Part shown: piece by piece, positions 1,364 through 5,187 of the stretch
How the letters are laid out: the number at the start of each line of letters is the position of its first letter
Numbering within the stretch: position 1 is the first letter of the stretch
From: a virus
DNA: 23,697 nt
Reading direction: 5' to 3' (one strand)
IMG/VR virus record: IMGVR_UViG_3300042868_004720
Location: 1-23,697 of that record
Notes under the pieces: generated by a model
Told to the model about the DNA's origin: nothing
Databases searched by the model: none
The model's input: the letters and a program-made list of their open reading frames with translations, nothing else
Translations under genes and position numbers: made by a program

Positions 1364-1393
1364 TTTGTAATTAAAAAATAATAGTTATATTTG
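1364..1393 (+). promoter_or_regulatory. Bacteroidota-type promoter for the replication operon
   Basis: The -33 box TTTG is at 1364-1367 and the -7 box TATATTTG at 1386-1393, with an 18-base spacer, matching the Bacteroidota consensus TTG...TAnnTTTG. The expected start of transcription is near 1398-1400, immediately before the first arm of the leader RNA. This is the best-matching promoter in the window and should drive 1534 onward. Confidence 0.8.
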
Positions 1394-1398
1394 TGTAT

Positions 1399-1490
1399 CG
1401 AAGCGTGGAAACTCCGAAAAAAATTTATTAAAAAACGAATACAAAAGCTAACTGATAAGGTTTCCACGCACCTTTGAAGTTGGCTTTTTT
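1399..1490 (+). ncRNA. structured leader RNA A (pseudoknot-capable, terminator-like end)
   Basis: A 10-bp perfect inverted repeat, GCGTGGAAAC (1403-1412) with GTTTCCACGC (1460-1469), crosses a second stem, AAAAGCTAAC (1443-1452) with GTTGGCTTTT (1479-1488, one wobble). The second stem ends in a T-run (1485-1490). The order a-b-a'-b' is that of an H-type pseudoknot with loops of 30, 7 and 9 nt. The 5' end coincides with the predicted +1 of the upstream promoter, so it is either a free RNA of about 90 nt or a regulated leader (attenuator) for the gene at 1534. Leader B (4551-4627) has the same topology with different stem sequences. I do not recognise it as a known RNA family. Confidence 0.6.
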
Positions 1491-1533: not shown

Positions 1534-1731
1534 ATGGCGGTAAGAGTTAGATTTTATGATTCGTTAGAATCTAAAGAAATTACATTTTTAGAATGTAAAA
1601 AAATTGAACCTTTAAATGTAATAGGTATTCGTGTTGACGATTCATCTTGTTCGGTTCCTGTATTATTAGACAAACAATCTTCTATCAGATTAGTTCGTGA
1701 ATTACGTAAATTAATTTCTGAATTAGATTAG
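1534..1731 (+). CDS. hypothetical protein, first gene of the replication operon
   Basis: A 65-residue protein of unrecognised family, with a mostly beta-type first half and a charged helical C-terminus (R-L-V-R-E-L-R-K-L). I chose the ATG at 1534. The frame continues upstream to a TTG at 1474, but that start lies inside the second stem of leader RNA A and would add a peptide encoded by the terminator T-run, so it is unlikely. The gene is the first after leader A and is separated by two bases from the initiator-like gene, so its expression may depend on read-through of the leader. Confidence 0.65.
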   Translation: MAVRVRFYDSLESKEITFLECKKIEPLNVIGIRVDDSSCSVPVLLDKQSSIRLVRELRKLISELD

Positions 1732-1733
1732 TC

Positions 1734-2351
1734 ATGAGAAAGGCATTTAACTTTTTTCATAGTTACTATGAAGTAGCTAAGGAATTAAACGATAAAGATA
1801 GGCTTGCTTTTTTAGATGCAATTTTAAAAAAACAATTTACTGGTTGTGAAACTGAGTTAACAGGTATGTCAAAGTTTGCGTATCTATCTCAAAAACATTC
1901 TATTGACTCACAAATAAAAGGTTATTTTGATAAAACAAAAGACCCTATGTTTGACCCATTACAAGACCCTTGCCAAGGGGGTAGCGTAGACCCTATTAAA
2001 GCCCCTTCGGTACAAGAGAAAGAGAAAGAACAAGAGAAAGAACAAGACGTATACACTCATCCACTTCAAAAATTTATTTTAGATAATTTACCAACGGTGT
2101 CTAAACTTGAAATACAATTAACAAATGAACAATGTGAAAAGTTAATTGGTGAATTTAATAAAGACTCGATAAAAGATATTTTAGAAAGTATGGAAAATTC
2201 AAAACAACTTACTAAAAAATATAAATCGGTGAATCTTACAATTAGATCGTGGATTAAAACAAGACAACAAAATAATCCTATGTTTGGTAAAATTGAAACT
2301 TATTTGCCAAATCAAAGTAAAGGTATTTCATATTTTGATCAAACTAAATAA
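1734..2351 (+). CDS. replication initiator-like protein (DUF6291-type N-terminus)
   Basis: A 205-residue protein. Residues 1-60 resemble the DUF6291/phage replisome-organiser N-terminus: F-x-x-S-Y-Y-E-V-A-K-E-L, then D-R-L-A-F-L-D-A-I, then the E-L-T-G segment. A low-complexity linker of repeated E-K-E-Q (about 95-105) leads to a C-terminal helical domain (about 120-180) containing K-K-Y-K-S-V-N-L-T-I-R-S-W-I, which resembles the C-terminus of phage initiators that recruit the helicase. The usual glycine-rich G-K-K-G-G-R segment after the N-terminal domain is missing. It ends two bases before the primase-helicase gene, which fits a role in origin recognition or helicase loading. The family assignment is from memory of patterns. 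Confidence 0.5.
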   Translation: MRKAFNFFHSYYEVAKELNDKDRLAFLDAILKKQFTGCETELTGMSKFAYLSQKHSIDSQIKGYFDKTKDPMFDPLQDPCQGGSVDPIKAPSVQEKEKEQEKEQDVYTHPLQKFILDNLPTVSKLEIQLTNEQCEKLIGEFNKDSIKDILESMENSKQLTKKYKSVNLTIRSWIKTRQQNNPMFGKIETYLPNQSKGISYFDQTK

Positions 2352-2353
2352 TT

Positions 2354-4135
2354 ATGGTGAATGAATTTTTAGAAATAGGAATAATCCCAAAAGGTAATTC
2401 AGTAGAGCAAAAGGTAACTTGTCCAAATTGTGTTAGAATAGGCAAAACAAACATAAAAGATACTTGCCTATCAATTAGCCTTGAAAGTGGTTTATACAAT
2501 TGTTTCAAATGTGGATGGAAAGGAAACGTTAAAAAAAGAGAATTAAAACAAATGACTTACATTAAACCAACAAAACAAAACTTTACAAAGTTATCAGATA
2601 AAGCACTTGAATTATTTACACAACGTGGGATATCTCAAAGTGTAGTAATGGATAATAAGATTGTAATGTCAAAAGACGGTCAAAGTGTTATATTCCCATA
2701 TATTCGAAATGGTGAATTAATAAACTACAAACAAAGATTTATTGATAAAAAAGATTTCAGACAGGGAAAAGATGCTGAGCCGATAATGTATAATTATGAT
2801 CGTTGCGTAAATCAAAAAGAGATTATTATTTGCGAAGGTGAGTTCGATTGTTTAGCATTTGAAGAGGCTGGATACACAAACGTAACTTCAGTTAATCAAG
2901 GCGCACCAAACGAAAACGACACTAACGTAGATAAGAAATTAGAATGTATTACAAACTGTTATGAATTATTTGAAAATGCTGAAAAAATATACATAGCAAC
3001 AGATAATGATGCAAACGGCAGAAGATTGAGAGATGAGTTAATTCGTAGGTTTGGAGCAGAGAAATGTTTTTTAATCGATTTTAACGATTGTAAAGACGCG
3101 AATGAATACTTGATTAAGAATAATAAATTAAAGCTCGCAGAATTGCTTAAAATAGCAAAAGAAGTGCCTTTGGACGGAGTGTTCACCGCTCAAGACGAAA
3201 AGATGACAATGTTAGATAGTTTTCGTAATGGTAAAAAACGTGGTCAAACAACACACTGGAAGGATATTGATATAGCGTGGACGTGGCGAACTGGTGAGGT
3301 TACTATATGGACTGGTTACCAAAATGAAGGTAAATCTTTATTTCTTCAAAGTTTATGTTTACTTAGAGCTTTTCACGACAATGAAACATTTGCGTTTTTT
3401 AGTCCAGAGAATATTCCTATCGGTGATTTCTTTGACGATTTAATAGAAACTTTTGTTGGCAAGTCAACAGATCCACATTACAAACACAATCAAATGGGTG
3501 AAACTGAGTATTTAAATTCAATTGATTTTTTATCAAAGCATTTTTTTATGATTTATCCTCCTAAAGATTTTGAGTTTGAAACGATTTTAGAACGTGCAAA
3601 ATATTTAGTTAGAAGAAAAGGAATAAGACACTTAATTTTAGATCCTTATAATACTATTGAACACAAAATGAAGCACGGAGAAAGAGAAGATTTATACATA
3701 TCTCGTTTTATGAGTGAATTAAAACGCTTTGCAGTAGCAAATGATATAGGTATTCATTTAGTAGCACACCAATTAACACCGCAAAAAGATACAAATGGAA
3801 GGTATTTAAGACCAGATTTAAATAGAATCAAAGGTGGTGGTACATTTTCAGATAAAGCGGATAATGTTAATTTTGTATGGAGACCAAATAGAGCTTTAGA
3901 TTTTAGTGATACAGAAGTAGTTTTTGGAAGTCAAAAGATTAAGAAACAAAAGTTAACAGGAATACCACAGGATATAATTAATATTAACTTTCAAAGAAAA
4001 ACGAATAGATATTATATTGGTGGCAAAAGTCCTTTTGATGACATTGACTGGATATTAAATAGAGTTCACGAACCTAAACAAGAAGAAATAACATTTTTAA
4101 AACCTAATACAGAATTTGATGAAACACCCTTTTAG
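2354..4135 (+). CDS. bifunctional DNA primase-helicase (T7 gp4-like)
   Basis: Makes RNA primers and unwinds DNA at the phage replication fork. The N-terminal zinc-binding domain has C23, C26, C50 and C53 (C-P-N-C and C-F-K-C). The TOPRIM primase core has the E-G-E-F-D motif at 161-165 and the metal-binding D-N-D at 217-219. The C-terminal RecA-like helicase has a Walker A G-Y-Q-N-E-G-K-S at 321-328 and a Walker B-like hydrophobic stretch ending I-L-D-P-Y, followed by an A-H-Q segment typical of the DnaB/gp4/Twinkle family. Its length of 593 residues is close to that of T7 gp4 (566). It follows the initiator-like gene by two bases, and no separate DnaB or primase gene is present. No DNA polymerase gene is visible in this window. 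Confidence 0.93.
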   Translation: MVNEFLEIGIIPKGNSVEQKVTCPNCVRIGKTNIKDTCLSISLESGLYNCFKCGWKGNVKKRELKQMTYIKPTKQNFTKLSDKALELFTQRGISQSVVMDNKIVMSKDGQSVIFPYIRNGELINYKQRFIDKKDFRQGKDAEPIMYNYDRCVNQKEIIICEGEFDCLAFEEAGYTNVTSVNQGAPNENDTNVDKKLECITNCYELFENAEKIYIATDNDANGRRLRDELIRRFGAEKCFLIDFNDCKDANEYLIKNNKLKLAELLKIAKEVPLDGVFTAQDEKMTMLDSFRNGKKRGQTTHWKDIDIAWTWRTGEVTIWTGYQNEGKSLFLQSLCLLRAFHDNETFAFFSPENIPIGDFFDDLIETFVGKSTDPHYKHNQMGETEYLNSIDFLSKHFFMIYPPKDFEFETILERAKYLVRRKGIRHLILDPYNTIEHKMKHGEREDLYISRFMSELKRFAVANDIGIHLVAHQLTPQKDTNGRYLRPDLNRIKGGGTFSDKADNVNFVWRPNRALDFSDTEVVFGSQKIKKQKLTGIPQDIININFQRKTNRYYIGGKSPFDDIDWILNRVHEPKQEEITFLKPNTEFDETPF

Positions 4136-4298: not shown

Positions 4299-4532
4299 AT
4301 GAAGAAACGAATCAAATTCATCAAAGGGGTTCTAATCCCAAAAGTATCTGAAATATACGAAGTAGATGCCTTAGATATAAATTGGCATATAAAAACGAAA
4401 TACAACTTTGAATCTTACACATTAATAGATGCTGAGCAATTAGATGAAATCATATGTATGTTAGATCAGATGTTGTTAGAAAAGAATTATGATATAAATG
4501 AAGATTACTACAATAAATTGAAAAGAATTTAG
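4299..4532 (+). CDS. hypothetical protein
   Basis: A 77-residue protein of unrecognised family, with a basic N-terminus (M-K-K-R-I-K-F-I-K) and an acidic helical second half. The stop of the preceding gene is immediately followed by this ATG, so the two are co-translated. It is the last gene of the replication operon. The promoter of the next unit (-33 box at 4518) lies inside its last codons. Confidence 0.65.
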   Translation: MKKRIKFIKGVLIPKVSEIYEVDALDINWHIKTKYNFESYTLIDAEQLDEIICMLDQMLLEKNYDINEDYYNKLKRI

Positions 4533-4546
4533 TATCTTTATGTTCG
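4518..4546 (+). promoter_or_regulatory. Bacteroidota-type promoter for the HNH/ninG unit
   Basis: TTG (4518-4520) and a -7 box TATGTTCG (4539-4546, one mismatch to TAnnTTTG) are separated by 18 bases, the same spacing as the promoter at 1364-1393. Transcription should begin near 4551, exactly at the first arm of leader RNA B. An overlapping TATCTTTA at 4533 fits worse because no TTG lies at the right distance. Confidence 0.55.
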
Positions 4547-4550
4547 TGTA

Positions 4551-4627
4551 GTTGCGGACACAGTAAGAAATTTAATAAATGCTATTAGTGAGTAGAGACC
4601 GCAACCTCGAAAGCTAATAGCTTTTTT
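4551..4627 (+). ncRNA. structured leader RNA B (same topology as leader A)
   Basis: GTTGCGG (4551-4557) pairs with CCGCAAC (4599-4605), and GCTATTAG (4581-4588) pairs with CTAATAGC (4614-4621). The two stems cross in the order a-b-a'-b', and six T residues follow (4622-4627). Loops are about 23, 10 and 8 nt, close to leader A. After the first stem both leaders carry a similar C-C-T-x-x-G-A-A loop, while the stem sequences differ, which is what compensatory change in a shared structure looks like. A local hairpin AAAGCT/AGCTTT (4610-4624) could form instead at the 3' end. The homing endonuclease ATG begins only five bases after the T-run. Confidence 0.6.
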
Positions 4628-4632
4628 GTTTT

Positions 4633-5187
4633 ATGGAAGAAATTTGGAAAGATATAATTGGTTATGAGGGATTATATCAAGTTAGTAATTTAGGACGTGT
4701 AAAGTCTTTATCAAGAAAAATAAGATATATTAATCATTATAATAACCAAGAATATTTTAGGTTAACAAAAGAAAAAATGATTTCAATTGGTAAAACAAGG
4801 GGATATAATAGTATTAATTTGTCAAAAAATGGAATACATGTTACATGTAGATTATGTAGATTAGTTGCAATTCATTTTATAGAAAATAAAGAAAATAAAT
4901 CTGATGTAAATCATATTGATGGTAATAAAGAGAATGATTGTGTTTTAAATTTGGAATGGAATACAAAAAAAGAAAATATGCAACATGCTGTAAAAACAGG
5001 ATTATGGAAACCTAAAAAAGGTTCAGATAATTGTGGTTCAAGAAAAGTTATATGTATAAAAACAAATAAAATATATGATACAATTTTAGATGCTGCAATA
5101 GATAATAATATAAGTTCATCTCATTTATCAAGGGTATTACGAAATATTTATGTTAATAATACAACTTTAAGACATTATGAAATGTAA
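4633..5187 (+). CDS. HNH homing endonuclease (NUMOD4-HNH-NUMOD1)
   Basis: A 184-residue free-standing homing endonuclease that cuts a specific DNA site and promotes its own spread. The NUMOD4 motif is at residues 1-25 (I-W-K-D-I-I-G-Y-E-G-L-Y-Q-V-S-N-L-G-R-V). The HNH domain spans about 70-125 with V-N-H-I-D-G-N (H94) and the N-L-E-W-N-T segment. A C-terminal NUMOD1-like DNA-binding helix pair covers about 138-180. The gene sits between leader RNA B and ninG, and its last 11 bases overlap the ninG start, so it may have invaded a leader-ninG unit (inference). No group I intron is evident around it. The coding sequence looks even more AT-rich than its neighbours, consistent with acquisition. 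Confidence 0.9.
   Translation: MEEIWKDIIGYEGLYQVSNLGRVKSLSRKIRYINHYNNQEYFRLTKEKMISIGKTRGYNSINLSKNGIHVTCRLCRLVAIHFIENKENKSDVNHIDGNKENDCVLNLEWNTKKENMQHAVKTGLWKPKKGSDNCGSRKVICIKTNKIYDTILDAAIDNNISSSHLSRVLRNIYVNNTTLRHYEM

Follow-up and report, generated by a model that had tools for sequence, protein, structure and literature searches.

A kissing-hairpin RNA family with a built-in terminator, found ahead of replication genes in Bacteroidota phages

The locus and the parts of the RNA

The window considered here is the whole 23,697-nt stretch of virus DNA that was analysed (IMG/VR record IMGVR_UViG_3300042868_004720), and it contains a replication module of flavobacterial type. Its positions 1399-1490 encode a structured RNA of about 90 nt that lies directly downstream of a Bacteroidota promoter. 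A preliminary description had noted at this place two interlocking 10-bp stems followed by a T-run, immediately behind a promoter, and had taken them for a pseudoknot-capable RNA heading the replication operon, either a free RNA or an attenuator. On inspection of the sequence, both stems are present: 1403-1412 (GCGTGGAAAC) pairs with 1460-1469 (GTTTCCACGC), and 1443-1452 pairs with 1479-1488, a stem that can be extended to 1443-1453/1478-1488 with one G.U pair and is followed by TTTTTT. The promoter is likewise confirmed and is of the Bacteroidota type. The pseudoknot reading is supported in a refined form, since the RNA is best read as two hairpins with kissing loops (a loop-loop pseudoknot) with a core of 8 bp, 1403-1410/1462-1469. 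The loop of the 5' hairpin P1 (K, 1403-1410) pairs with the apical loop of the terminator hairpin (K', 1462-1469), within which a minimum-free-energy (MFE) fold found the inner stem P3, whereas P1 was added by comparison with relatives. The features of the region are as follows, with their basis in brackets.

1364-1393, plus strand: Bacteroidota-type promoter, TTTG (1364-1367), 18-nt spacer, TATATTTG (1386-1393) (sequence)
1398-1417, plus strand: P1, 5' hairpin with K in its loop; weak in this copy, UCG 1398-1400 with CGA 1415-1417 (annotation; in the C-type alignment 5/5 P1 pairs covary)
1403-1412, plus strand: K, 5' arm of the kissing helix; the 8-bp core 1403-1410 can zip up to 10-11 bp (sequence, covariation)
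1416-1429, plus strand: A-rich single-stranded linker, GAAAAAAATTTATT; family consensus AAAGAAATT or AARRWATT (alignments, tally of linker forms)
1443-1488, plus strand: P2, terminator hairpin, 1443-1453 with 1478-1488 (fold, covariation)
1457-1474, plus strand: P3, inner stem AAGGU/ACCUU (1457-1461/1470-1474), with K' in its 8-nt apical loop (MFE fold, covariation)
1460-1469, plus strand: K', 3' arm of the kissing helix, core 1462-1469 (sequence, covariation)
1485-1490, plus strand: T-run of the intrinsic terminator, putative 3' end of the short RNA (sequence)
1534-1731, plus strand: first gene behind the leader, encoding a 65-aa protein from a small family seen repeatedly between RNA and replication initiator (AlphaFold pLDDT 83)
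1734-2351, plus strand: DUF6291-type replication initiator / replisome organizer (Pfam DUF6291 below cutoff; PHROG replisome organizer)
2354-4135, plus strand: TOPRIM primase / DnaB-like helicase (Pfam)
4533-4540, plus strand: promoter-like TATCTTTA of the second copy, off consensus (sequence)
4546-4627, plus strand: second family member (sequence; covariance model R1), with P1 4546-4549/4558-4561, K 4551-4557/4599-4605, linker AAGAAATT 4565-4572, P2 4581-4589/4613-4621, P3 4595-4597/4606-4608 and T-run 4622-4627

Across the family the TAnnTTTG element ends about 8-14 nt before K, as it does here (1386-1393, with K from 1403), and transcription probably starts near 1399. The spacing from the end of TTTG to the T-run has a median of 90 nt (5-95% range 81-99). 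A sigma-70 scan did not list 1364-1393 among its predictions. Between close relatives TATATTTG differs at 0.2% of sites against 14-21% in the RNA body, in a comparison for which a promoter match was an inclusion requirement. About 110 nt upstream of the promoter, a separate terminator-like hairpin (1249-1277) is found behind a lipoprotein-like small ORF (1019-1228), so that the leader may be insulated from upstream transcription.

The linker GAAAAAAATTTATT is a close variant of the form seen between P1 and P2 throughout the family; the frequency of AAAGAAAT among linkers is inflated because it was part of the search pattern, and the divergent forms come from unselected loci. The K:K' helix, of 6-11 bp in the family, crosses the terminator stem here as elsewhere. 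In some relatives (L058, L091, L048, L055) the 7-nt hairpin loops consist entirely of K and of K', which is the classic kissing-loop geometry. When pseudoknot plus T-run were scored at equal geometry, 1399-1490 reached 29, and none of 202 dinucleotide shuffles of the window (both strands) reached 27 or more.

The preliminary description had also seen the same topology recur at 4551-4627. This is a genuine second member, with bounds now at 4546-4627: the covariance model R1 matches 4528-4627 with 29.7 bits (E 0.028 in 0.92 Mb), and the copy scores 23, a value expected 0.015 times per window from dinucleotide shuffles. It has diverged from 1399-1490, and its linker fits the family form. R1, which is a C-type model, did not report 1399-1490, probably owing to the longer spacer of the A-type group. 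Directly behind the second copy, the ATG of a NUMOD4-HNH endonuclease gene (4633-5187) lies at 4633.

Covariation among relatives

A search with the primase-helicase brought up 16 related virus contigs that have a matching architecture before their replication genes, with different stem sequences. A pattern search using promoter, linker and T-run only gave 107 distinct matches, and the pseudoknot was present in 46 of them compared with 0.1% of shuffled versions. The census comprises 67 distinct instances from virus contigs and cultured phages.

As MAFFT was unable to align the family directly, hand-set segments padded with N were used for structural alignment. In an alignment of 12 sequences, whose rows had been preselected by a pairing scan, 96.7% of cells were paired, double changes occurred in 25 of the 28 pairs and all four helices covaried, the kissing helix at 6/8 pairs. 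The covariation score was 0.885, against 0.24 in shuffles and at most 0.12 with slid partners. Two fairer tests were added. The model R1 was built from C-type members and holds P1, P2 and P3, without K and without the promoter; 23 of its 27 usable matches outside the training set nonetheless contain at least 7 consecutive loop-loop pairs, for which swapped partners give a chance level of 9% and shuffled loops one of 4%. A covariation scan of the R1 matches, all against all, recovered the K pairs unaided and gave no rival helix, the strong helix-forming covarying pairs all lying in P1, K, P2 or P3.

The A-type group, which includes 1399-1490, covaries alone: K has 80/80 cells paired and 4/8 pairs doubly changed, P2 98/100 and 5/10, and P3 50/50 and 2/5. 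K also changes with compensation between near-identical cultured phages, lillamy having GTGAGACG/CGTCTCAC as K/K' and snusmum and mumin GTGGAACG/CGTTCCAC, with two changes in K and two matching changes in K'. An exception is L076 (9890-9979), in which K and K' are mismatched and pair only partially; its 3' half equals that of L067 while its 5' half differs, and it is either a recent recombinant or an assembly chimera.

Judged by these sequence comparisons, 1399-1490 is a member of a widespread, covarying family of structured RNAs of Bacteroidota phages. Its members are built of two hairpins, a conserved A-rich linker and a kissing helix of 7-9 bp, the second hairpin being an intrinsic terminator, with a promoter directly before. 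Inverted repeats and T-runs abound in AT-rich phage DNA, which would suit a chance or DNA-level inverted repeat without an RNA role. Against this stand the shuffle nulls, the strand-specific promoter and T-run and the compensatory changes across dozens of phages; such an origin is extremely improbable, and covariation refutes it for the entire family.

That flavobacterial phages might harbour a new structured RNA family had been suspected from the two copies in the window, and a covariance-model search for covarying homologues had been proposed. Covarying relatives proved abundant and reach Parabacteroides phages too, and no Rfam family corresponds to them: none of the 4227 Rfam families gave a gathering-score match, the sole weak Bacteroidota match being 6S-Flavo, on the wrong strand and with 17.3 bits against a cutoff of 85. 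The structured RNAs of Bacteroidota in Rfam include 6S-Flavo, Flavo-1, Bacteroidales-1 and Bacteroides-1 (PMC2864571), which the RNA at 1399-1490 resembles in phylum but does not match at gathering score. A literature search conducted outside subscription journals found no description of a kissing-hairpin RNA family. This is a real and apparently undescribed RNA family, of the kind of structured leader/terminator RNAs.

Carriers and downstream genes

Eight cultured flavobacterial phages were picked by name or primase similarity, without regard to the RNA, and all eight carry one element within or heading the replication region: Tenacibaculum JQ, Cellulophaga phi10:1 and phi19:1, Flavobacterium lillamy9-1, 11b and FCL-2, Polaribacter P12002L and Croceibacter P2559S. 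In the Parabacteroides phages PD691P6 and PD691P4 the element lies 14 nt before an initiator-like ORF, and the DNA of PD482P1 and PD691P3 is identical there. At the places searched, Riemerella phages and Bacteroides fragilis-type phages lacked the element: it was absent near the homologous gene of PJL1 and CRP19 (Riemerella) and at the initiator of B124-14, BK649P1 and BF3-TP1 (Bacteroides), and none with a promoter was found anywhere in B40-8. A prophage or host origin was rejected: the C-type pattern, which matches at least 15 viral contigs, gave 19 matches in 84,980 species genomes, none of them with the structure. R1 found no member in 400 genomes of the Polaribacter family, a weak negative given the strict filters; 4/4 control records were recovered. 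At this limited search sensitivity, no member was found in bacterial species genomes.

A same-strand ORF, counted as a simple ATG ORF, starts at most 60 nt from the T-run in 61 of the 67 instances, compared with 15% at random positions, and the next long ORF is on the opposite strand in only one. The usual order is RNA, small ORF of 60-80 aa, replication initiator or helicase loader, and primase-helicase. The first large ORFs most often match replication initiation, O-like, DnaD-like loader and primosomal families, and the initiators behind the RNA include DUF6291, HTH_36, Phg_2220_C, DUF7833-like and Lin1244-like families. From the T-run to +150 nt, TAnnTTTG promoters occur at the background level of 0.8/kb with no enrichment, so most downstream genes are without another consensus promoter.

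The 65-aa protein of the window has a predicted beta-beta-beta-beta-alpha fold (four strands, one helix) with a weak resemblance to a single PUR repeat (E 0.64), and it is a candidate RNA partner and no more. It belongs to a fast-evolving family of 60-80 aa found between RNA and initiator (1534-1731; L003, L024, L025, L031, L032, L057, L158, L160). A second small-protein family holds the equal position at other loci (L004, L021, L083, L086, L100, L102, L118), and a C-terminal pattern is common to both. Between terminator and small ORF, a short conserved AGTTACTGGTTATCTAAAAACCTTTA and its variants recur, cultured phages included (L024, L025, L031, L158, L160, L166, L170); it may belong to the leader or act as a translation signal.

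Homing endonuclease genes (NUMOD4-HNH, GIY-YIG) often lie directly behind the RNA, as in the window and at L007, L048, L051, L077, L091 and L132, as if the leader position were a favoured insertion point, or an expression source, for them.

Phage FCL-2 and the FCV-1-type phages have upstream DNA in common and diverge from the RNA onward, which indicates that RNA and replication genes are exchanged together, as one cassette. In these Flavobacterium columnare phages (L164 = FCL-2 against L174-L177 = FCV-1, V186, FCOV-S2, FCOV-F9) the border of the exchange is at the RNA. The T-run of the FCV-1 type is degenerate (GGGGCTTAACTTTTT). Among other relatives, RNA type and initiator type, with the downstream genes, are reshuffled (L004 and L005 against L016; the window against L002). 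The initiator is therefore unlikely to be the ligand of the RNA and was rejected as such.

Possible functions

While the structure of the RNA at 1399-1490 is established, its function as a leader is what we infer. The reading that we prefer, with about even confidence, is a cis-acting 5' leader that throttles the replication operon via a kissing-stabilised terminator, a ~90-nt RNA being released. RNA polymerase would start at about 1399, the nascent RNA would fold P1 and then P3, and K would then meet K'. Most transcripts would stop at about 1490, at P2 and the U-run, and yield the ~90-nt RNA; expression of the small ORF, the initiator and the primase-helicase would come from those that read through, or from upstream transcripts passing the terminator. 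Terminator strength would be set by the kissing complex, which together with the AAAGAAATT-like linker may offer a shaped site for a regulator, which might be a host factor for transcription or RNA binding, or else the small protein of the neighbouring gene. The purpose would be to cap and time the synthesis of replication proteins.

That such a leader limits replication-gene expression is suggested by its position next to same-strand, mostly replication-type genes, by the missing second promoter and by the built-in terminator, and between FCL-2 and the FCV-1-type phages a change of RNA goes with a change of replication genes. Nevertheless, RNA and initiator types reshuffle between relatives, behind some second copies lie homing endonucleases and not replication genes, and the unbiased covariation scan contains no conserved antiterminator helix. 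A classical two-state attenuator is unsupported, as no conserved helix excludes the terminator, and if there is a switch, it has to lie in a factor or in how stable the kissing complex is. For the same reason a free-standing phage small RNA stays close behind as a tentative alternative, in which the product would be the terminated transcript of ~90 nt itself, working in trans on RNA polymerase, on a nuclease or on a host RNA, or as an RNA-protein particle, its location reflecting early expression and modular inheritance. This RNA has its own promoter and a strong terminator at fixed spacing, the whole molecule covaries with no antiterminator alternative, and one RNA type is found before different genes. 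Yet the nearness to same-strand ORF starts far exceeds that of random positions, most instances precede one functional gene class and none was seen as an isolated unit elsewhere; position favours a leader over a free RNA.

It is unlikely that the promoter and RNA mark or prime a replication origin (a transcription-activated origin, a primer or an R-loop), with the structure controlling primer release. The constant place heading the replication module would agree with this, and the element of JQ (35967-36051) contains the cumulative GC-skew minimum of that phage (36013). However, JQ alone fits, the minimum missing the element in lillamy, FCL-2, 11b, P12002L and P2559S; second copies sit before HNH genes, and an RNA ending in a U-run is a poor primer. 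Similarly improbable is a plasmid-like system of copy-number control and incompatibility in phages, in which the released ~90-nt RNA would encounter, in trans, nascent leaders that share its K type. If true, replication-gene expression would fall as genome copies rise, related phages with the same K would interfere mutually, and K would be kept changing. A few of the closest pairs do suggest a fast diversifying K, but this is unsupported in aggregate: over 65 close pairs the divergence per site is 0.21 in K and 0.19 in the terminator stem, and a difference this slight does not favour the copy-number reading.

Among known phage RNAs, the put RNAs of HK022 are promoter-proximal, have two hairpins, act in an early operon and occur twice per genome. 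Put does not itself end in a terminator but reads through later ones; its sequence and structure are not known to be related to those of the present RNA. Lambda OOP is a short terminated RNA beside phage replication genes and is antisense to cII-O, whereas the kissing-hairpin RNA is sense and has a kissing pseudoknot. In the repZ and repA leaders of plasmids, a pseudoknot activates translation beside a leader peptide and is opposed by an antisense RNA. Such leader pseudoknots belong to IncI-alpha, IncB and IncL/M plasmids (Asano & Mizobuchi 1998, cited in PMC10724649), and the likeness is that two distant hairpin loops pair into a pseudoknot in the leader of an initiator gene. The phage pseudoknot differs in forming part of an intrinsic terminator. 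Nor is there any enrichment of antisense promoters: antisense TAnnTTTG occurs at 0.5-0.6/kb in and just behind the element against a background of 0.85/kb, and antisense regulation in the manner of pT181 or ColIb-P9 was rejected, no sign of a countertranscript promoter having been found. The pT181-type transcription attenuators of plasmid rep genes (Novick 1989, also cited in PMC10724649) likewise have an intrinsic terminator ahead of a replication-initiator gene, within its leader. Whereas pT181 has mutually exclusive helices and an antisense RNA, no alternative helix was found in the phage RNA. By analogy, the function would most resemble the pseudoknot or attenuator control of plasmid initiator genes, with the defining features tested here (antisense promoter, exclusive helices) absent.

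Almost nothing is known of replication control in Bacteroidota phages, and one easily recognised RNA before initiators of several unrelated families, in cultured phages, offers a direct handle on it. For each cultured carrier (lillamy, FCL-2, phi10:1, phi19:1, JQ, 11b, P12002L, P2559S, PD691P6) it predicts where a transcript starts, where it ends and that a kissing helix forms, and in metagenomic phages it marks the replication module even where the initiator has diverged so far that it cannot be named. In these phages, the RNA probably limits or times the expression of the replication genes.
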